The notes under the pieces are model-generated. The model saw nothing but the letters and a program-made list of their open reading frames with translations, ran no database searches and was not told the DNA's origin. Position numbers and translations under genes: made by a program. Shown piece after piece: positions 42,836 to 52,304 of a stretch of DNA of 64,000 nucleotides (positions are counted from its first letter, which is position 1; each line of letters starts with the position of its first letter). Where the stretch lies: assembly GCF_016019885.1 (NCBI RefSeq), contig NZ_JAEANY010000002.1:310001-374000 (forward strand), read 5' to 3'. Source of the stretch: Aurantiacibacter sediminis. GTDB lineage: Bacteria; Pseudomonadota; Alphaproteobacteria; Sphingomonadales; Sphingomonadaceae.

Positions 42836-44653
42836 ATGACTGACCTTTCCAAAATTCGCAATTTCTCGATTATCGCGCATATCGATCATGGCAAGTCGAC
42901 CCTCGCCGACCGGCTGATCCAGGTTTGCGGCGGCCTGACCGAGCGCGAGATGTCCGAGCAAGTCCTGGATAACATGGACATTGAGAAGGAGCGCGGCATC
43001 ACCATCAAGGCGCAAACCGTGCGCCTCAACTACACGGCCAAGGATGGCGAGACCTATGAGCTGAACCTCATGGACACGCCGGGCCATGTCGATTTCGCGT
43101 ATGAGGTCTCCCGCTCTCTGGCGGCGTGCGAGGGCGCCCTGCTGGTGGTCGATGCGGCGCAGGGCGTTGAGGCGCAGACGCTCGCGAACGTCTATCAGTC
43201 GATCGAGCATGATCACGAAATCGTGCCCGTTATCAACAAGATCGACCTTCCTGCAGCCGAACCCGAACGGGTGAAGGAAGAGATCGAAGAGGTCATCGGC
43301 CTCGATGCGTCCGAAGCGGTGCTGACCAGCGCCAAATCGGGCATCGGCATCGAAGATGTCCTCGAAGCGATCGTGGCGAAAATCCCCGCGCCGGGCGGAG
43401 ACCGCGATGCGCCGCTGAAAGCGATGCTCGTCGATAGCTGGTACGATCCCTACCTCGGCGTCGTCATCCTGGTGCGTGTGATCGATGGAGTCCTCAAGAA
43501 AGGGCTCGACATCAAATTCATGCAGGGCGGGACGCAGCACCTGGTGGACCGCGTGGGCTGCTTCAATCCCAAGCGCGTCGATCTTCCAGAAATCGGCCCG
43601 GGCGAAATCGGCTTCATCACCGCGCAGATCAAGGAAGTCGAACAGGCCCGCGTGGGTGACACCATCACCACGGTGAAGGGCGGGGCCGAGACCGCGCTCA
43701 AGGGCTATAAGGAAGTGCAGCCGGTGGTGTTCTGCGGGCTTTTCCCGGTGGACGCGGCAGACTTCGAAAAGCTGCGCGAAAGCATCGGCAAGCTGCGTTT
43801 GAACGATGCGAGCTTCAGCTACGAGATGGAAAGCAGCGCCGCGCTCGGCTTCGGTTTCCGCGCCGGATTCCTCGGCCTGCTGCACCTCGAAATCATCCAG
43901 GAACGGCTCAGCCGCGAATATGATCTCGACCTGATTACTACTGCACCATCAGTGGTTTACCGCGTACACCTCGCCCACACCAAGAACGAAGATGCGGAAA
44001 CGCGGGACATCCATAACCCTGCCGACTGGCCGGACGTCAACCGGATCGAGATGATCGAAGAGCCATGGATCAAGGCGACGATCTACACGCCTGACGAATA
44101 TCTCGGCGCGATCCTGAAATTGTGCCAGGACCGGCGCGGCGTGCAGACGAACCTCACCTATGTCGGCGGGCGCGCGCAGGTCACCTATGAATTGCCGCTC
44201 AACGAAGTGGTGTTCGACTTTTACGACCGCCTAAAATCGATCAGCCGGGGCTACGCCTCCTTCGATTACGACCAGATCGGCCTTCGCGAAGGCGACCTCG
44301 TGAAAATGAACATCCTCGTCAATGCGGAGCCGGTCGACGCGCTATCGCTGATCGTCCACCGCTCCGTCGCCGAAGAACGCGGCCGCGGCATGTGCGAACG
44401 CCTGAAAGACCTCATCCCCCGCCACCTCTTCAAGATCCCCGTTCAGGCAGCCATCGGCGGCAAGATCATCGCCCGCGAAACAATCGCCGCTCTGCGCAAG
44501 GACGTGACCGCAAAATGCTACGGCGGCGATATCTCGCGCAAGAAGAAGCTGCTGGAAAAGCAGAAGAAGGGGAAGGCGCGGATGAGAGAATATGGCAATG
44601 TTTCAATTCCCCAAGAAGCGTTTATAGCTGCTCTGAGAATGGGGGAAGAGTGA
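42836..44653 (+). CDS. lepA: Elongation factor 4 (LepA)
   Basis: The 605-residue translational GTPase has AHIDHGKST at 14-22, '[13 protein letters not shown]', '[16 protein letters not shown]', 'NKIDLP' and the LepA-specific C-terminal '[18 protein letters not shown]' and '[15 protein letters not shown]' (in part). It back-translocates or rescues stalled ribosomes. The last 70 bases or so are only about 44% GC and use codons (TTT, ATA, GCT, AGA) unlike the rest of the gene, matching the low-GC island that follows. The stop overlaps the next gene's ATG. Confidence 0.97.
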
Positions 44654-45816
44654 TGGCCGCCGAGCAAGCTGACGGATCCGAACAAGAATGGTGGCAGGAG
44701 TTGCCGCTCAACATGAGCGTGCCAATCGATCCGAATAAGCTAGCCTTCGACAAGAAGAACCCTCGGTATACAGGCGACAAAGGTTTGCCTCATGATACTG
44801 AGGCTGAAATTATAGAGTTTTTGAATGAGACTTCCGACTTAGGAGAACTCCTTCAATCAATATCGACCAGCGGATTTGTCGATATTGAGCCACTAATAGT
44901 TATGGGACAGGGCGAAGAGCTTATTGTCTTGGAAGGCAATCGCCGATTGGCGGCGCTGCGCGTGCTTTCAGGTCACCCTTCCGCGTTAGAGGCAGGTCTC
45001 ATTGCTCCCCCTATGAGCGCGGACGTCGTAACGTCGCTCGAAACTGTGCGTGCATATCGCGTTCAGTCTCGTCCCGACGCCCGCAACTTCATTGGTTTCA
45101 AGCACATCAACGGGGCACATCGATGGGACTCACTGGCTAAGGCGCGCTTCGCTACAGAGTGGTTTAAGGAGGAAAAAGCCAAGACCGGCGGCCTGAGCCT
45201 CCAAGATATTGCGAAACGCATGGGCGACAGACACTCAACGTTGTTACGGATGGTACATGGTTTCCTGGTTCTGGAGCAGGCAATTCAGACTGGCAATTTT
45301 TCAATAGAAGACCGCGAGAAGGGGAGGCAGTTCGCCTTTTCGCACTTGTACACGGCACTCACGCGCCCGGGATACCGAAAGTACCTAGGCCTACCTGAAA
45401 TGAACAAGGAATTTGAACCAACGGAAAATCCTGTCGCCGAGGAAAAACTTCCAGCGCTCAAACAAGTCATGTTGTGGCTATACGGTTCTGAGTCGGACAG
45501 TACCGCAGCAATAATACGCTCACAGAATCCGAACGTGAAACAACTTGGCGAAGTGCTGGAGCGTCCAAAAGCTTGCAGAATTCTCCTTGAGAGTGGCGAC
45601 TTAGCTCGTGCCTATCAGGAAGTTGATACGCCACTCCGACAATTCGAGCGACGCATTGTCGAGGCCCACGGAGCTCTCGAAGAGTCCTTAAAGAAGGCAT
45701 CGGCCTTCGACGGGAGCGACGCTACGCTTATGGATCTTGCCGAAGAAATAGATGCAAATGCAGACAATCTGCTTTTGATCATGAAGTCTCGTGCTGATCG
45801 GGTTGGCCAAGCTTGA
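44653..45816 (+). CDS. ParB/Srx-like DNA-binding protein
   Basis: A 387-residue protein with ParB-like N-terminal features: 'FDKKNPRY' near 32-39, 'IEPLIVMGQ', and the ParB box EGNRRLAAL at 94-102, plus 'FKHINGAHRWDSLAKA' at 149-164, followed by a helix-turn-helix-like segment 'LQDIAKRMGDRHSTLLRMV' at 183-201. Such proteins act outside chromosome partition in phage and defence modules as nucleases, CTPases or DNA-binding adaptors. It begins at the ATG overlapping the lepA stop and shares TTGA with the next gene. GC is about 45-50%, well below the flanks. Not the chromosomal ParB: no parA is adjacent. Confidence 0.8.
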   Translation: MAAEQADGSEQEWWQELPLNMSVPIDPNKLAFDKKNPRYTGDKGLPHDTEAEIIEFLNETSDLGELLQSISTSGFVDIEPLIVMGQGEELIVLEGNRRLAALRVLSGHPSALEAGLIAPPMSADVVTSLETVRAYRVQSRPDARNFIGFKHINGAHRWDSLAKARFATEWFKEEKAKTGGLSLQDIAKRMGDRHSTLLRMVHGFLVLEQAIQTGNFSIEDREKGRQFAFSHLYTALTRPGYRKYLGLPEMNKEFEPTENPVAEEKLPALKQVMLWLYGSESDSTAAIIRSQNPNVKQLGEVLERPKACRILLESGDLARAYQEVDTPLRQFERRIVEAHGALEESLKKASAFDGSDATLMDLAEEIDANADNLLLIMKSRADRVGQA

Positions 45817-46787
45817 TCCTAGGGCCTTCTATAGATGACGGCGAACTCAGCCTAGTCGATTGGCTGGAATTGAGTGCGTTCTTTGCTGACGAGCGAATGG
45901 TCCGCCTTGATGAAATCGAGAATGCATTGGACATCGAGCAAGAAACCGAACTCGAGGATATTTCAGAAGCCGATAGTCTTGAGGAAGATCGAGCCGCACT
46001 GCTCGCCAATGAGGTTGGGCGACGGACCAATGTGCTTGCCGACGCTTACCCATTCTCGATTTCCGAAAACGGGGAAAAGCTGAGCTTCTTGCCGGAACTA
46101 AATTTCGGACGGCTCAGTTACCTTATTTGCTTAATTCTCAACAATTCTTGGACTTCCGGACGTTTGCAAGCTCCACTACGTCTCACAAACGAAGAGCTAC
46201 GGTCGGCCCGTGATATCTTTGAAGTGGTGTCATTGTTTGCTGCGCTAGGTCGAACAGGGGGGCCGGGATTTCTGCTCGGAACAAATCGAGCTGGTGCGGA
46301 GGCTTTGCTCAGGAGACTGCGAGACGTTTGCGAGAAGGTAGGCGAAGGGCGAGCACGAGATGCGGTCCCAGCTGCCGCTCCGCCTGCTGCAAATGATGAC
46401 GGTGTCGACATAATCTCGGTTGAGTTGGAGCCGGACGGTCCGCCGATGCGTGTGTTCTCTTTTGGTCAATCAGCATCGGGACAGAACTTCAAAGACAAGC
46501 CAATAAAGAATCTAGTCGAGGGCTTTTTGGACATTTGGTTCGACACTCAACCTCAGAACACCGAAGCTGCAATGTATATACCAGCAATTCTTGATCAGAA
46601 TGATCTGCGCTATTACAACGGACGACTTGGTCTGATGATCCACAGACCAAGGCTGGCTGCTTATGCCCAACGCGGGTTTGAGTTATATCTGCAGAACCAA
46701 GAGTTGGTCCACTACGTTGACGACGTTGACGCGCCGCAAGCATTTTACAACGCTTATCTTCGAAGAATCGAAACCGATGTTGCCTAG
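45813..46787 (+). CDS. Uncharacterised protein, candidate PD-(D/E)XK-like nuclease
   Basis: A 324-residue protein with no confident family. Its N-terminal part is acidic and helical (about 10-65). The stretch 195-230, 'DDGVDII' ... 'FSFGQSASGQNFKDK', has the spacing of restriction-like folds, in which an Asp pair in a GVD-type strand is followed by a strand with (E/Q)-x-(K/S) and a later Lys. The last third, with 'YIPAIL' and 'GLMIHRPRLAAY', is also reminiscent of hypothetical nucleases in defence loci. A TTG start overlaps the ParB-like stop. It converges with the methyltransferase, one base apart. The nuclease call is inference from motif spacing only. Confidence 0.45.
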   Translation: MILGPSIDDGELSLVDWLELSAFFADERMVRLDEIENALDIEQETELEDISEADSLEEDRAALLANEVGRRTNVLADAYPFSISENGEKLSFLPELNFGRLSYLICLILNNSWTSGRLQAPLRLTNEELRSARDIFEVVSLFAALGRTGGPGFLLGTNRAGAEALLRRLRDVCEKVGEGRARDAVPAAAPPAANDDGVDIISVELEPDGPPMRVFSFGQSASGQNFKDKPIKNLVEGFLDIWFDTQPQNTEAAMYIPAILDQNDLRYYNGRLGLMIHRPRLAAYAQRGFELYLQNQELVHYVDDVDAPQAFYNAYLRRIETDVA

Positions 46788-46788
46788 T

Positions 46789-47655
46789 TCACGTGGGTCT
46801 AATAAGCAGCTCAGATTCCAGTCGTTTCTCACTCAAGCTGTATTGCAATGGATTGTCATTGATTGACGCAAAGCTATACAGACGGCGAATGAGATCAGCA
46901 CGGTCGTAGGTAATTAACCAACCTCCCAAAGAGGTCTTCTTTCGAACGAGCTGCGCCAGCTTCTTATGAGCGATTTCCTCCATTGAATTGAAATAGAGAC
47001 GACCTCCCATTTGGACGTACGGCGGATCAATGAAGAAGAAGGTGCGCTTTGCATCCTTGGGCAAATATGCGCGTATGAATTCAAGCGCGTCGAGATTTGT
47101 TAGCCTGATTGAGTCTCGGTGGGCCCCAATCCACTCAACTCTCTTTGCAATCGTTTCGCGATAGAACCGAGCATCAAGCTTCCAGGCCCCTTCTTGAGCA
47201 TAACCGCCAATCGGTCCAGCCCCAGTAATGATTCCCGACCTATTCGTTCTGTTCATGTAGAAAGTGGCGAAACCGAGTTCGAAGGTCGACCGACCTGTTT
47301 TGGGATTGTCTACGACCTCTTTCATTGCGTACCAAGTCTCGAGGTCAAGAGGGGTCGTCCTTATGCGTTCAGCGAAGCGGTCTGTTTGTTCGAGAATTGC
47401 CTGCCATGCCGAAAAAATTCTTATGTCTGCATCGTTAAGAGCTATACTCTCAACGAATTCGCCCGCTAGCAATTCAATCGCGGCCCCCGCTCCACCAGCG
47501 AATGGCTCAGCATAATCCGTGATTTCAGCTGCAAGTGACTTGATGGTTTCGGCGATCTCGGGAAGCATAAATGCCTTCCCGCCGGGATAGCGGAAAGGAG
47601 ATTTGCCAAAGTTGTCCTTGGCGAAGTTTCTGGAAACGCGCGAGATTGCGATCAC
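46789..47655 (-). CDS. D12-class DNA adenine N6-methyltransferase
   Basis: A 288-residue Dam-like enzyme with FRYPGGK at 21-27, the AdoMet motif 'EPFAGGAGAAIELL' at 50-63, NDAD at 74-77, the 'YMNRTNRSGIITG' segment at 133-145, and the catalytic DPPY at 210-213. All motifs of D12-class (alpha-order) adenine methyltransferases are intact. It is not CcrM, which has another motif order. In this context it would protect host DNA from, or mark it for, the neighbouring proteins. Low GC, like its two partners, and convergent to them. Confidence 0.9.
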   Translation of the reverse strand: MIAISRVSRNFAKDNFGKSPFRYPGGKAFMLPEIAETIKSLAAEITDYAEPFAGGAGAAIELLAGEFVESIALNDADIRIFSAWQAILEQTDRFAERIRTTPLDLETWYAMKEVVDNPKTGRSTFELGFATFYMNRTNRSGIITGAGPIGGYAQEGAWKLDARFYRETIAKRVEWIGAHRDSIRLTNLDALEFIRAYLPKDAKRTFFFIDPPYVQMGGRLYFNSMEEIAHKKLAQLVRKKTSLGGWLITYDRADLIRRLYSFASINDNPLQYSLSEKRLESELLIRPT

Positions 47656-47770: not shown

Positions 47771-48598
47771 CTACCCCCAATCCTCATCCTTCAGCCTTCT
47801 CACCCTCGGCGCATCCTCCTCACCCTCCGGCTCTTCTTCCCGCCAGCCCGGCAGGAGCTTTTTCATCTCCTCGCTCGGGCCGAGCACGCCCATGTCGGGG
47901 TCGTCTGCGGGATCCGCGCCGGGTGAGGCGTCCGCGTCGTCCATCCACGCATTGGGTTCGGCCTGGTCGCGTTCGAAGCTTTGTTCGTAGGCCTCTTTCA
48001 GGCGGCGGGTTTCGGGGCTCATCATGGCTTCGCGGCGCTCGCGCATTTTGTCGATCTTGGCATTGATGCGGGCGATTGTGTCGCCGCGGTTCTTGCGGTG
48101 GGCGGCCACGCGTTCGCGCTCCCACTCCTTGCGCCATTCCTTCTTCTCTTGCGCGAGGCGGTGCTTGTCGAGCGCATTCAGGCCTTTCGCTCCATCCGCC
48201 GCGAAGCGATTGGGGGCGCGGTTTCTCAGCATGAACATGAGCAGGCGATCGTTGTAGATCGTGCGTTTGCCCACCAGCTTGCCGTAGGAATAGACGGGCA
48301 CGTCCACGCCGTTCAGCGCACGGTCCATCGCCACGTCCTCCACCCGTTGCATGCCGAGATCGAGCGCGGCCTGCCACGCCTTGCGGAAGGTCTTCGCCTC
48401 CGGGTGGCGGCGCAGGAGGTAGGCGCTCTCCGGCGTCATCCCCACGCTGTTCGCCGCCGCGCGGACGGAGCCGTAATCGGCCAGCGCTTCGATAAAGAGC
48501 TGCTGGCGCTCGGGTGTCCAGCCGTCGTGCCGCTGGCACTTGCGCGGGACGGGGGTGAAGGCGGGAAGGGTGGTCTTGGGTTTGTTGGGTGAGGGCAT
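47771..48598 (-). CDS. Helix-turn-helix protein of sphingomonad type
   Basis: A 275-residue protein beginning 'MPSPNKPKTTLPAFTPVPRK' and containing 'HDGWTPERQQLFIEALADYG', a helix-turn-helix 'VRAAANSVGMTPESAYLLRR' and 'FRKAWQAALDLGMQRVEDVA'. This resembles terminase small-subunit-like DNA-binding proteins that occur, often in several copies, in Sphingomonadales genomes. The rest is a highly charged helical region rich in Arg, Glu and Lys, and an acidic tail. Function unknown. GC is like the chromosome, so it probably lies outside the low-GC island. Confidence 0.72.
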   Translation of the reverse strand: MPSPNKPKTTLPAFTPVPRKCQRHDGWTPERQQLFIEALADYGSVRAAANSVGMTPESAYLLRRHPEAKTFRKAWQAALDLGMQRVEDVAMDRALNGVDVPVYSYGKLVGKRTIYNDRLLMFMLRNRAPNRFAADGAKGLNALDKHRLAQEKKEWRKEWERERVAAHRKNRGDTIARINAKIDKMRERREAMMSPETRRLKEAYEQSFERDQAEPNAWMDDADASPGADPADDPDMGVLGPSEEMKKLLPGWREEEPEGEEDAPRVRRLKDEDWG

Positions 48599-48670: not shown

Positions 48671-48865
48671 TCAGCCGCCGGTCGAGGACTTGTTCGCCTC
48701 GACATATTCGCTTTCGATCGTGTTGTATTGCGTCTCGACTTCGTTGCCGAGCGAGAGCATCACGCCTGCGACGGCTACGCCGATAAGCATGGCAACCACA
48801 CCGTATTCGACTGCGGTCGCACCGGCTTCAGCCTTTGAAAGGCGCTGGATAAATTTGCGAAACAT
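48671..48865 (-). CDS. Flp/Fap-type IVb pilin
   Basis: A 64-residue protein with the Flp pilin pattern: short basic leader, 'AEAGATAVEYGVVAMLIGVA' with the Glu of the class IVb processing site region and Tyr, followed by one hydrophobic helix and a polar tail. It would be processed by a TadV-type prepilin peptidase and polymerised by the Tad machinery. No tad genes are nearby, so this is an isolated pilin gene. Confidence 0.9.
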   Translation of the reverse strand: MFRKFIQRLSKAEAGATAVEYGVVAMLIGVAVAGVMLSLGNEVETQYNTIESEYVEANKSSTGG

Positions 48866-49361
48866 GCGGCAAAGCCCTTTGGCTGGATGAATAGTGGCGA
48901 AAGCTATGCCGTAGGTTAGTAAACATCGCGTTTACGCTGACGGCTAGAGGCTAACCGCGGGTCAGGGATGACCGCTTCGTTTGAAATGGACAAAAGGCCG
49001 ATATGCTTGCACCCGCGCCAACGAGCGCGATTTGCAAACTTATCACACTTGTGACTGCTTTTCTCACTGGGATTTGCTGGAGAGACAGCGTGACACGCCC
49101 TGCAAGCAATTGAGAATCCGATGAAAAATGGCCAGAGCAACCTGAATTTCAATTTTACGGTAGCTTGTCACAATTGTTTCAAAAATGTCACACGAATTCG
49201 TCGCGTGTGAAACTTGTGCGCTCTGCGATTGTGCGTTGCGATGCGAAATGCTTTGGGGCTTTGTCAGGAAGGAGGATTTAGGTTGCCAGTCCAGATGATC
49301 GAAGAATCCGCGGTCCGGTGCCTCTTTCCATCAGTTTCTCCCACTTACCAGGAGCACATGA
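48866..49361. other. Long AT-rich intergenic region upstream of the TonB receptor
   Basis: About 500 bases between the divergent pilin and TonB-receptor genes. It is more AT-rich than its surroundings and has repeated TGTCACA-like words around 49161-49215. No gene was found; it should hold both promoters and the receptor's regulatory sites. Confidence 0.6.
49188..49210. promoter_or_regulatory. Inverted repeat TCACACG-N9-CGTGTGA upstream of the TonB receptor
   Basis: Perfect 7-base arms with a 9-base spacer, about 150 bases before the receptor ATG, in a region with additional TGTCACA words. This looks like an operator for a dimeric regulator; the regulator and nutrient are unknown. Confidence 0.45.
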
Positions 49362-52304
49362 ATGTTTAATCGTAAAACCAAGGCTTCGCTGCTCGCGTCG
49401 TCGGTGATCTTCGGATCGCTGGTCGCAGCACCGGCGATGGCTCAGGACGATCAGTCCGATGATCCGACGATCGAGTCGGGCGCCGCTGACGAGCGTATCG
49501 TCGTTACCGGTACGCGTATTCAGCGCCGCAACGTCGAAACCGCAGCCCCGGTCGCTGTTGTCGACAGTGAAGAATTCCAGCTGGCTGGTGCAGTCAACGT
49601 CGAGAACGTTGTGAACACGCTGCCGCAGGTTGTTCCGGGCATCACCTCTTTCTCGAACAACCCGGGCAACGGTACCGCATCGGTTGACCTTCGCGGTCTC
49701 GGCGCGACCCGTACCATGCTGCTGGTCAATGGCCGCCGCTGGATGTTCTACGATACAAACCAGGTCGTCGACCTCAACACGATCCCGCAGTTCCTGCTGG
49801 AATCGGTTGACGTTGTGACCGGTGGTGCTTCGGCCGTTTACGGTTCGGACGCTCTTGCTGGTGTTATCAACTTCCGTCTGCGTGATCTCGACGGTGCCGA
49901 AGTTGGCGGTCAGTACTCGATTACTGAGCGCGGCGATGGCGATCGTTGGCAGGTCCACGGCGCAATCGGCACCGATTTTGCCGGTGGCCGCGGTAACGTG
50001 ACCGTTTTCGGTGAGTACTTCAATCGTGAAGACATCTTCCAGGGTGACCGCGATTTCTCGAACTTCGCCCTCGGCGGTTCGCCGCTGCAGCAGCTTGGTT
50101 CGTCGCTCCCGCCTGAAACCCGCCTGACCTATCTCGGTGACGGCGATGAAACCGGCACTTCGTTTGATGGTCCGAACTCGGGTCTCGCGATCTTCGGTTC
50201 GCCGGGTTCGCTTCGCGAATACCAGACCCCTGGTGACTTCTACAACTACGCTCCGGTAAACTACCTGCAGCTTCCGCAGGAACGTTACCTTCTGGGTGGT
50301 TATGCAAGCTACGAAGTGGCTCCGGCTCTCGAACTTTACACGGAAGTGACCTACGTCAACAACCGTGTGGACTCCGAGTTGGCTCCGACGCCGATCCTTG
50401 TGAACACCTCCCTCGATATCGACTCGTTGGTGGCCAATGGCTTCATCGATGCAGCTACCGAAGCTGAATTCCGCTCGCTTGACGCGACGGAAACCGGCAC
50501 AGACCAGAACGACGGCCTTATCGACGTTCAGGTCCGTCGTCGTCTGGAAGAAGCTGGCGGTCGTCGTAACCTCGACGAGCGTAACTCCTTCCGCGTTCTG
50601 GCCGGTGCTCGCGGTGATATCACCGACTTCCTGAGCTACGACGCATACTACCTGTATTCGCGTACCCGTAACTCAAACATCCAGCAGGGTAACGCTTCTG
50701 TTTCGCGTTTCACCGCTGCGATCAACGGCACGGGTGACGAGCAGATCAACATCTTCGGTGCAGGTACCCTGACGCCGGATATGGTCGATGTGTTCCGCAT
50801 TCAGGCACAGAACGGCGATATCTCCGATCTGCAGGTTGCAAACGTTGCCCTGTCCGGCTCGTTCGGTGATTTCGCTCTCGGCGTTGCCGAGCCGGTGGGT
50901 TTCGCTGTCGGTGCTGAATACCGCGAAGTGAACTCGCGCTTCATTCCTGACGAATTCCTCGCTTCGGGCGACGTTGCCGGCTTTAACGCTGGTGAGCCGA
51001 CCGACGGTGGTTACAACGTTCAGGAAGTGTTCGCCGAGCTTAACGTGCCGTTCGAAACCGAAAGCGGTATGCGCTTCGAAGCAAACGCGGCAGCGCGTTA
51101 TTCGGACTACTCGCTCGACACTGTCGGCGGCGTGTGGACCTATGCTGGCGGCCTGCAGTTCGCTCCGATCGAAGACATCCGTTTCCGCGTGCAGTATCAG
51201 CGCGCAGTTCGTGCCCCGAACGTGGCCGAACTGTTCCAGGGTTCGGCTATCGGCTTCCCGGGTGCAAACGATCCGTGCGCAACCACAGCTGCTTCGTCCG
51301 GCACGCTGCGCACGCTTTGTGCCGCTAACGGCGTAGACACCGACCTGCTCGACGATCTCGGCTCAAGCGATCCCGCAGTGGTCGCTGGCGCTCAGAACCA
51401 GATCCAGCCAGACGGCCAGATCGCGGCTCTGTTCGGCGGTAACCCGAACCTGGCGGAAGAAACCTCGGACTCCTGGACCTTCGGCGTCGTGCTGCAGCCG
51501 TCCTTCATTCCGGGTCTCACGATCACGGCTGACTACTTCGACATCACCGTCGAAGATGCGATCACCACGATCAGCCTGCAGCAGGCTCTGGACATCTGCT
51601 TCAACGATGTGCAGGACCTCTCGGCTCCGCAGTGTGCCGGCTTCGTCGGTCGTCGTGACACAACCGGCTCGTTCGGTCGTCCGCCGCTGCCGACCCCGAA
51701 CCTCGGTGGTGCGAACATCGCAGCCCTGACCGTTTCGGGTATCGACCTTCAGATCAACTACGGCATTGACCTCGGCTTCTCGCTGCTGGGCAATGGCGCT
51801 TCCGATCTGGATCTGTCGTTCCTCGGCACGTGGAACGAAGTTGCGAACTTCTCGCCTGACCAGGCGGATCCGACCAACGTCGTCGAATGTGCTGGCCAGT
51901 TCGGTCTGAACTGTGGTGAGCCGACCCCGTCCTTCAAGTGGACTGCTCGTGCGAACTACATCGATGGCCCGCTGACCGTCTCGACCCGCTGGCGTCACCT
52001 GTCGGCTGTCGATGATGACGATCCGTTCACCGACTACTTCGTTGAGCGTATTGCAGCTTACGATCTCATCGATCTGACGCTGTCCTACGACTTCAACGAA
52101 ACCGTGACCTTCACGGTTGGTGTGAACAACCTGTTCGACACGTTGCCGAGCTCGCCGGAGTTCAACTCCGACGGCCAGGTCATCAACGACACGAACACCC
52201 TGCTTTTGGGTGACTTCAACAACGCTGAGCAGATGAACACCTACCCGTCGACCTACGACGTGCTTGGTCGTGACTTCTTCGCATCGGTCGTGGTCCGCTT
52301 CTAA
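49362..52304 (+). CDS. TonB-dependent outer-membrane receptor
   Basis: A 980-residue protein with a signal peptide ending at 'APAMAQ' (about residue 29), a plug domain ('RIVVTGTRIQRRN', 'DLRGLGATRTMLLVNGRR', 'DVVTGGASAVYGSDALAGVINF', quoted in part) and a long beta barrel ending in '...FFASVVVRF', with the C-terminal Phe needed for BAM recognition. It imports a nutrient using TonB energy; the substrate is unknown. AGGAG lies nine bases before the ATG. Codon use is strongly biased to CGT, GGT and AAC, unlike neighbours, indicating high expression. Its own terminator follows. Confidence 0.95.
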   Translation: MFNRKTKASLLASSVIFGSLVAAPAMAQDDQSDDPTIESGAADERIVVTGTRIQRRNVETAAPVAVVDSEEFQLAGAVNVENVVNTLPQVVPGITSFSNNPGNGTASVDLRGLGATRTMLLVNGRRWMFYDTNQVVDLNTIPQFLLESVDVVTGGASAVYGSDALAGVINFRLRDLDGAEVGGQYSITERGDGDRWQVHGAIGTDFAGGRGNVTVFGEYFNREDIFQGDRDFSNFALGGSPLQQLGSSLPPETRLTYLGDGDETGTSFDGPNSGLAIFGSPGSLREYQTPGDFYNYAPVNYLQLPQERYLLGGYASYEVAPALELYTEVTYVNNRVDSELAPTPILVNTSLDIDSLVANGFIDAATEAEFRSLDATETGTDQNDGLIDVQVRRRLEEAGGRRNLDERNSFRVLAGARGDITDFLSYDAYYLYSRTRNSNIQQGNASVSRFTAAINGTGDEQINIFGAGTLTPDMVDVFRIQAQNGDISDLQVANVALSGSFGDFALGVAEPVGFAVGAEYREVNSRFIPDEFLASGDVAGFNAGEPTDGGYNVQEVFAELNVPFETESGMRFEANAAARYSDYSLDTVGGVWTYAGGLQFAPIEDIRFRVQYQRAVRAPNVAELFQGSAIGFPGANDPCATTAASSGTLRTLCAANGVDTDLLDDLGSSDPAVVAGAQNQIQPDGQIAALFGGNPNLAEETSDSWTFGVVLQPSFIPGLTITADYFDITVEDAITTISLQQALDICFNDVQDLSAPQCAGFVGRRDTTGSFGRPPLPTPNLGGANIAALTVSGIDLQINYGIDLGFSLLGNGASDLDLSFLGTWNEVANFSPDQADPTNVVECAGQFGLNCGEPTPSFKWTARANYIDGPLTVSTRWRHLSAVDDDDPFTDYFVERIAAYDLIDLTLSYDFNETVTFTVGVNNLFDTLPSSPEFNSDGQVINDTNTLLLGDFNNAEQMNTYPSTYDVLGRDFFASVVVRF

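Follow-up and report, generated by a model that had tools for sequence, protein, structure and literature searches.

Organization of the Three-Gene Locus

The question raised by this locus is what function is served by three adjacent genes of low GC content in the chromosome of Aurantiacibacter sediminis. The genes lie in a 64,000-nucleotide stretch of contig NZ_JAEANY010000002.1 (positions 310,001 to 374,000, forward strand), hereafter called the window, and positions are counted from its first letter. Genes A, B and C jointly occupy 44653..47655 and encode a ParB-like protein, a PD-(D/E)XK-like nuclease candidate and a D12-class adenine-N6 DNA methyltransferase, respectively. We consider it probable that they constitute a compact anti-phage cassette resembling restriction-modification and guarded by methylation, in which C would guard self DNA and A would license B to cut unmarked DNA. 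This reading is supported by the fold and motif assignments of the proteins, the pairing of A and B across phyla, one fusion of the two, a methylase adjacent in most loci and the location in two hotspots.

Gene A (44653..45816, forward strand, 387 amino acids) starts with ATG, gene B (45813..46787, forward strand, 324 amino acids) with TTG and gene C (46789..47655, reverse strand, 288 amino acids) with GTG. The start of B overlaps the stop of A in the letters TTGA, and C converges on B, the two stops being separated by the single base 46788. This arrangement agrees with the initial annotation, which was made from the letters of the window, and A, B and C are real, intact open reading frames (ORFs) of foreign composition. 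The ATG of gene A has one base in common with the TGA stop of the preceding gene, lepA; this start is a choice, since the open frame extends back into lepA as far as a GTG at 44392. The GC-content per 500 bases is 46–54% inside the trio and mostly 55–65% outside, with a second dip to 51% near 48750-49500. The genes are indeed poorer in GC than their surroundings, as annotated, but the contrast is smaller than the 45–50% against about 60% given there. The interval between lepA and a downstream terminase-like gene has a GC-content of 51.0%, compared to 58.7% at the end of lepA and 59.4% in the 2.5 kb past the interval. A sigma-70 scan returned one promoter-like site (2.0 in shuffles), and eight terminator-like sites were counted (4.0 in shuffles); neither a promoter nor a terminator is claimed.

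Conservation and Spread of the A–B Pair

Single-protein queries with B against cellular genome contigs and with A against viral contigs returned no relative, whereas alignment A3 found them. A search with this alignment gave 471 relatives of A in cellular genome contigs and 109 in viral contigs, and the counts below refer to the best 80 of each. One duplicate record (L065) was given the label of its original (L009) in the 160-locus counts.

Gene B adjoins A in 74 of the 80 cellular loci and 79 of the 80 viral loci (153/160 together), and a methylase gene is located within 400 bases of the pair in 65 and 76 loci, respectively. The pairing of A and B is not a matter of chance. Among the exceptions, A itself is cut by the contig end in L036 and L073, the contig ends 322 and 672 bases past A in L135 and L050, and B was truly not found in L057 and L096. 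In Brevundimonas sp. SSC2 (L034:4953-7076), A and B are fused into a protein of 707 amino acids, encoded beside a convergent D12 methylase gene; the fusion points to a joint action of A and B. Relatives of the cassette are spread over many bacterial phyla and are also carried by phages. The cellular loci with an entry (n = 73) comprise 69 in 14 named phyla and four without a phylum, many cellular loci being metagenome-assembled genomes, in which binning can err.

In a search started from B, 296 genomes of the order and 398 of the phylum yielded family matches in six genomes each, ten different genomes in total. Gene A is adjacent in nine of the ten, the window included, and the tenth (G467) is a 71-residue fragment. 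A methylase gene stands beside the A–B pair in eight, and G534 has none within 14 kb by motif. A single-protein scan of 199 genomes of the family detected B in two and A in four.

A plasmid of Microvirga lotononidis (L008:5980-6955) carries B in two overlapping ORF pieces together with an intact D12 gene, A not being found at this locus. This is perhaps a decayed cassette with a surviving methylase.

Properties of the Predicted Proteins

Protein A comprises a ParB/Srx-type N-terminal domain with an invariant EGNRR motif (residues 94-98), a central helix-turn-helix (HTH, residues ~183-212) and a helical C-terminus. Residues invariant in 94 sequences include D33, P37, R38, E79, EGNRRL (94-99), A101, H151, W158 and K163. 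The profile of A matched the ParB N-domain of Protein Data Bank (PDB) entry 4umk with E-values of 8.1e-6 (alignment A3) and 2.9e-4 (alignment A5). The AlphaFold2 model of A, built with 94 sequences, had a predicted local distance difference test score (pLDDT) of 93.6, and all 20 Foldseek matches with E ≤ 0.001 were ParB, Noc or Spo0J proteins, including ParB bound to CDP or CTP-gamma-S (E from 2.8e-6; target-normalized template modeling score (TM) 0.29–0.53). In its model, A has the fold of a ParB/Noc-type N-domain followed by an HTH, and the ParB/Srx-like protein with an HTH proposed in the initial annotation is borne out by both the profile and the structural matches. What we take to be the ParB GERR phosphate motif is absent from A, and EGNRR stands where the 4umk ParB has AGERR. 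Over 29 loci with different methylase types, the mean identity was highest in the HTH (0.49), followed by the N-domain (0.43) and the C-terminus (0.31).

The AlphaFold2 model of protein B (101 sequences) reached a pLDDT of 95.2 and a predicted TM (pTM) of 0.93. Foldseek comparison to solved structures gave two matches with E ≤ 0.001, both of them chains of MspJI (4f0p; 7.9e-5 and 2.9e-4; probability 0.99). Below this level of significance, VC1899, PA endonuclease, BsaWI, SgrAI, Can2 and BsmI, many of which we take to be PD-(D/E)XK nucleases, were interspersed with unrelated proteins; TM was low and the root mean square deviation (rmsd) high in these matches. None of the viral models matched with E ≤ 0.001; the best match (2.7e-3) was a helicase, followed by restriction-type nucleases and unrelated proteins. 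In sequence searches, B matched phrog_14650 (function unknown) at 4.6e-21 and had no match in PADLOC or NCBIfam. Only one of 101 B proteins matches any PADLOC model at 0.001 (mREase_II, 1.2e-4).

The conserved motif is stronger evidence than the fold match for B as a nuclease candidate. D195 is conserved in 99 of 101 alignment rows, and D199 and Q219 in all 101, giving a D(x19)Q spacing that presumably resembles that of Mrr. Of the 101 rows, 28 have the lysine of the QxK motif and 73, the window protein among them, do not. A relocated lysine, 9–12 residues after Q (K229 in the window), is found in 72 of these 73 rows. The canonical place alone is filled in 27 rows and the place shifted by about eight residues in 72, with both filled in one row and neither in another; exactly one place is filled in 99/101, the pattern predicted for a catalytic lysine that was relocated. 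The identity of B proteins is 0.42 in the catalytic core and 0.22–0.28 elsewhere (residues 8-150, 110-190 and 231-324), these being the most variable parts. The assignment of B to a restriction-type PD-(D/E)XK-like nuclease fold is supported by the model and not proven.

The initial annotation had described the middle protein by its nuclease-like motif spacing, and the conserved residues and the MspJI match agree with that description. It had also proposed to look at the co-occurrence of the genes and at the modeled structure of the middle protein. The genes co-occur as described above, and the confident model of the protein has a restriction endonuclease as its best solved match, albeit with a low TM, so neither result spoke against a defense module composed of modification, candidate restriction and an adaptor.

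Protein C matched the Pfam family MethyltransfD12 (PF02086) at 1.4e-14 and the PADLOC model PD-Lambda-5_B at 3.6e-90 (residues 18-285), and the intact methyltransferase expected from the annotation is thereby placed in the D12 class. The match to TIGR00571 (dam; 2.1e-11) scored 44.1 bits and is below the cut-off of 114.85. Among solved structures, 7m6b is the closest to C in sequence (8.4e-15).

Diversity of the Methylase Partners

The kinds of methylase accompanying the pair were compared in 162 labeled A–B loci, comprising both best-80 sets and the phage, plasmid and genome matches, with the duplicates L001, L003, L004 and L065 dropped. The labels rest on sequence motifs together with a search that used C as the query, and Pfam agreed with them in all proteins checked (four SPPY, PF01555 N6_N4_Mtase; three C5, PF00145). 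C5 methylases were found in 68 loci, D12 in 58, SPPY in 19 and DPPY in one; the remaining 16 had none within 400 bases. The convergent order of the window is repeated in 83 of the 162 loci.

The labels were mapped on a tree of A with 126 rows, obtained by a quick search without bootstrap; with “none” counted as a label, the five labels require 20 changes on it. Nine changes are required for the SPPY (N6/N4) group, at least six of them forced by well supported branches, which indicates that D12 and N6/N4 partners were interchanged repeatedly. C5 methylases are confined to one A clade of 48 rows (41 C5 and seven with none).

Carriage by Phages

Phage Wphi (genes gp98, gp96 and mth), Escherichia phage vB_EcoM-12474III and Pseudomonas phage vB_PaeM-D14A carry A and B with a convergent C5 methylase gene. 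In the P2-like phage vB_EcoM-12474III the trio is flanked by portal gene Q on one side and replication gene A on the other. Vassallo et al. 2022 (PMC9519451) describe this place, bounded by the genes for the replication endonuclease and the portal, as P2 defense hotspot 1, in which tin and old reside.

Of 5,426 complete E. coli genomes, 103 contain the Wphi segment at a coverage of 80% or higher; one of them is E. coli W, which has the C5 form of the cassette in prophage Wphi. In the ten genome rows listed, its genes are annotated as a ParB N-terminal domain protein, a hypothetical protein and a cytosine methyltransferase. Carriage by P2-like phages, the varying type of methylase and a defense hotspot at the lepA 3′ end, described below, are all additions to the initial annotation.

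Relation to Known Systems

The closest named relative of the window set is PD-Lambda-5 (PD-λ-5), a system with measured anti-phage activity according to Vassallo et al. 2022 (PMC9519451). The likeness includes the ParB-like N-domain with EGNRR (hhalign 99.9 over 222 N-terminal columns of A) and the PD-Lambda-5_B-type D12 methylase beside A. The best PADLOC matches of A were PDC-M38A (1.2e-16, residues 59-378) and PD-Lambda-5_A (3.7e-16, residues 25-188), and the best PD-Lambda-5_A model is matched by 92 of 94 A proteins at 1e-10 or better. The match of the window protein to PD-Lambda-5_A does not extend over its length, since residues 25-188 fall on positions 8-176 of 440. In contrast to the cassette, PADLOC models PD-Lambda-5 as two proteins without B, the A protein of which (428–578 profile positions) has another C-terminal part. 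The candidate effector of the cassette is the separate protein B, and in many of its relatives the D12 enzyme is replaced by a C5 or N6/N4 methylase.

Alignment A6 comprised 13 PD-Lambda-5_A-like proteins, many of them close kin of each other. The possibility that PD-Lambda-5_A is an A–B fusion was rejected, as it has no match to B (hhalign probability 0.3). The window set is thus best described, from these profile comparisons, as a putative sister arrangement of PD-Lambda-5 with another effector and not as PD-Lambda-5 itself. The initial annotation could not name the trio, and it is not filed as PD-Lambda-5; the relationship to that system had, however, been missed.

In 13 loci, mostly from Actinobacteria, a single D12 gene is flanked by a PD-Lambda-5_A-like gene and an A–B pair (L046, L047, L048, L051, L054, L055, L058, L060, L062, L063, L067, L068 and L086). 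These four-gene sets have the look of two effectors served by a single methylase.

The PADLOC candidate PDC-M38 is similar in that residues 59-378 of A fall on positions 57-360 of PDC-M38A, and 92 of 94 A proteins match it at 1e-10 or better. However, the PDC-M38A profile has 715 positions, about half of which are absent from A, and none of the 101 B proteins match it (E ≤ 0.001). With type II restriction-modification the cassette shares its compactness, the combination of a nuclease candidate with a methylase and, in the window, a methylase gene on its own strand. It differs in the coupling of the nuclease-candidate gene to a ParB-like partner, and its cleavage and protection activities are only predicted. 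Of the type IV enzymes, MspJI is the best structural match of B, and the D(x19)Q spacing presumably resembles that of the MspJI/Mrr-type nucleases; unlike these, B has the QxK lysine moved in 72 of 101 proteins and a methylase partner, and no reader domain for modified bases was recognized in it.

GmrSD and DndB are examples of the ParB/Srx superfamily in defense, in which a ParB_n-type domain is likewise coupled with a nuclease or a modification system (PMC12373910, PMC12839542). GmrSD has DGQQR and an HNH domain (PMC12373910), whereas A of the cassette has EGNRR and a ParB/Noc-like HTH, and is accompanied by a methylase and by a PD-(D/E)XK-like partner that is a protein of its own.

The B family lacks a counterpart in Pfam and, apart from the one weak match, in PADLOC 2.0. 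No published description of a ParB-like/nuclease/methylase set or of a lepA defense hotspot was found in a literature search that had preprints and most subscription journals outside its range, and the main text of PMC9122126 has no occurrence of ParB, methylase or methyltransferase. The new part appears to be a B-type family of nuclease candidates joined to a PD-Lambda-5-related ParB-like protein and a methylase in a restriction-modification-like set.

Proposed Mechanism and Alternative Explanations

In the mechanism we favor, C would methylate a motif in the host DNA, and the methyl mark would protect self DNA. A, as a ParB-type DNA-binding protein, would form a restricting complex with B, load on or scan DNA, presumably using a nucleotide, and license B to cleave DNA without the mark, which would give the cassette its anti-phage activity. 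B may carry the target recognition, with A as the common switch, because B is most variable outside its core while the HTH of A is conserved. Alternatively, A may respond to a signal different from the motif, as the abortive scheme considered below would have it. By analogy, the homology of C to PD-Lambda-5_B, a component of a system with measured anti-phage activity, is a point for a defense role.

More tentatively, the cassettes could represent a widespread restriction class in which a nucleotide-switched DNA clamp of the ParB/Noc type, instead of a fixed recognition domain in the nuclease, gates a PD-(D/E)XK nuclease, so that unrelated methylases (D12 N6-adenine, C5-cytosine and N6/N4 type) could provide the self-mark, the sensor being joined to a different effector in PD-Lambda-5. 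The ParB-type switch is best known from chromosome segregation. If true, this would mean that it was recruited as a restriction control element in many phyla, and that the sensor, the nuclease and the methylase are modules open to exchange.

Several points weigh against the restriction-modification-like reading. The superposition of B on MspJI is poor (TM 0.16–0.22, rmsd 11.7–13.4), and sequence searches with B gave nothing in Pfam at E ≤ 0.05 and nothing among PDB sequences. The mutual exclusion of the two lysine places amounts to a few evolutionary events rather than 99, the canonical rows being nearly one clade. The switch to C5 methylases may have happened once. The 16 loci without a methylase within 400 bases by the scan are a further point: on recheck, the methylase was hidden by an overlong A start in L062, L063 and L068, the D12 gene was in two pieces in L049, and the methylase was 0.9–1.4 kb away in L075, L080, L137 and L159, but eight loci stay without one. 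In addition, G033 and G162, two of the four family genomes with an A match (25–26% identity in these two), have neither B nor C in the DNA examined. A test of whether the HTH of A recognizes the motif of the methylase came out unfavorably for this idea: the HTH is well conserved and barely differs with the methylase type (identity 0.51 within the same type and 0.47 between different types).

This behavior of the HTH, which does not track the methylase type, counts in favor of a dual or abortive system, in which A would sense a phage event (e.g., the loss of methylation or an anti-restriction protein) and free B as a general DNase killing the infected cell, while C would mainly quiet the sensor. 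PD-Lambda-5_A-like proteins, made of the N-domain of A and a different C-terminal part without B, also point to the same sensor with different effectors. We nevertheless regard such a system as unlikely: B resembles a restriction-type DNase, and the methylase was kept beside A–B in most loci through exchanges of its type, as in restriction-modification.

MspJI, the best Foldseek match of B, is a modification-dependent enzyme, and the single PADLOC match in the B family is to mREase_II. A type IV-like activity, with B cutting foreign modified DNA and C as a separate or antagonistic methylase, is still very improbable, since a methylase of varying kind is kept beside A–B in most loci, and an enzyme encoded beside its own trigger would cut the host unless the marks differ.

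ParB proteins usually serve partition and regulation, and no functional data were found for any A–B pair, but a set without a defense role, in which a partition or regulatory ParB-like protein, an orphan methylase and a structural or regulatory B hitch-hike on mobile DNA, is hardly compatible with the coupling of A and B over 14 named phyla, the invariant nuclease-type residues of B and the location in the P2 and lepA-linked defense hotspots.

The idea of a methylation-guarded restriction cassette is directly testable, since its C5 form is present in Wphi of the laboratory strain E. coli W.

The lepA Insertion Slot

The cassette is bordered upstream by lepA (elongation factor 4; 42836..44653, forward strand; TIGR01393, 4.9e-289) and downstream by a terminase-small-subunit-like chromosomal gene (47771..48598, reverse strand; phrog_4044, 6.6e-18). 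The 3′ end of lepA (44591..44653) has a foreign codon composition. The GC-content at third codon positions (GC3) of the 19-codon block 44591-44647 is 0.32, compared to 0.68–0.89 in the eight preceding blocks. It is the lowest of 61 genomes (60 others: mean 0.79, standard deviation 0.12, minimum 0.42); the binomial probability against the 0.79 mean is 1.2e-5 for a block that was chosen after looking. Because the foreign segment seems to start inside lepA, the incoming DNA seems to have replaced approximately the last 20 lepA codons, supplying its own lepA end and keeping the frame. A duplicate lepA tail downstream of the cassette was sought within the window and not found.

All four carriers of B found in sampled genomes of the window's family (G000, G078, G377 and G389; three genera) have the trio in the slot between lepA and the terminase-like gene. 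Their identity is 32–44% for A, 21–34% for B and 49–64% for C, and two carriers of one genus share 35%, 22% and 52%, respectively. The C-terminal 172 residues of LepA are 94–97% identical to those of the window, and the terminase-like neighbor is 50–60% identical. The strong divergence of the slot copies could reflect separate insertions or, given the low identity of the terminase-like neighbor itself, fast evolution in place.

For a survey of the slot, 60 family genomes were fetched out of 97 with lepA. A terminase-like gene follows lepA within about 8 kb in 22 of the 60. The interval is 2.6–8.6 kb long in 21 of them and empty in one (L240), where the match covers the N-terminal part of the terminase-like gene only. 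The cargo listed comprises 61 proteins of at least 160 amino acids, and 20 proteins from 11 intervals were scanned with PADLOC. Models of known or candidate defense genes were matched in eight of the 11 intervals, including HEC-01, NsnA and a C5 methylase with Vsr and a type II restriction endonuclease (REase) model; L225, L229 and L241 gave no PADLOC match among the cargo scanned.

Extra lepA 3′ ends are found downstream in seven of 97 genomes, the fragmented G022 being left out, and six of the seven were read at the nucleotide level. These observations fit recombination in lepA, replacing or doubling the lepA end. No integrase was recognized in the slot, where no search aimed at integrases was made. 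Judged from its cargo, the lepA 3′ end is a compact chromosomal defense hotspot in the window's family, holding cassettes of known and unknown genes, often of low GC content. The lepA site was rejected as a general site for the cassette, as lepA is present in none of the 160 A-anchored loci, up to ~5 kb on each side. One of these loci is from Sphingopyxis granuli (L019), which may be kin to the window's family.

A conserved protein of ~295 amino acids is encoded next to the terminase-like gene in five lepA slots (L211:3406-4299, L214, L220, L225 and L229). The copy at L211:3406-4299 matches the PADLOC HNH model at 4.8e-14.

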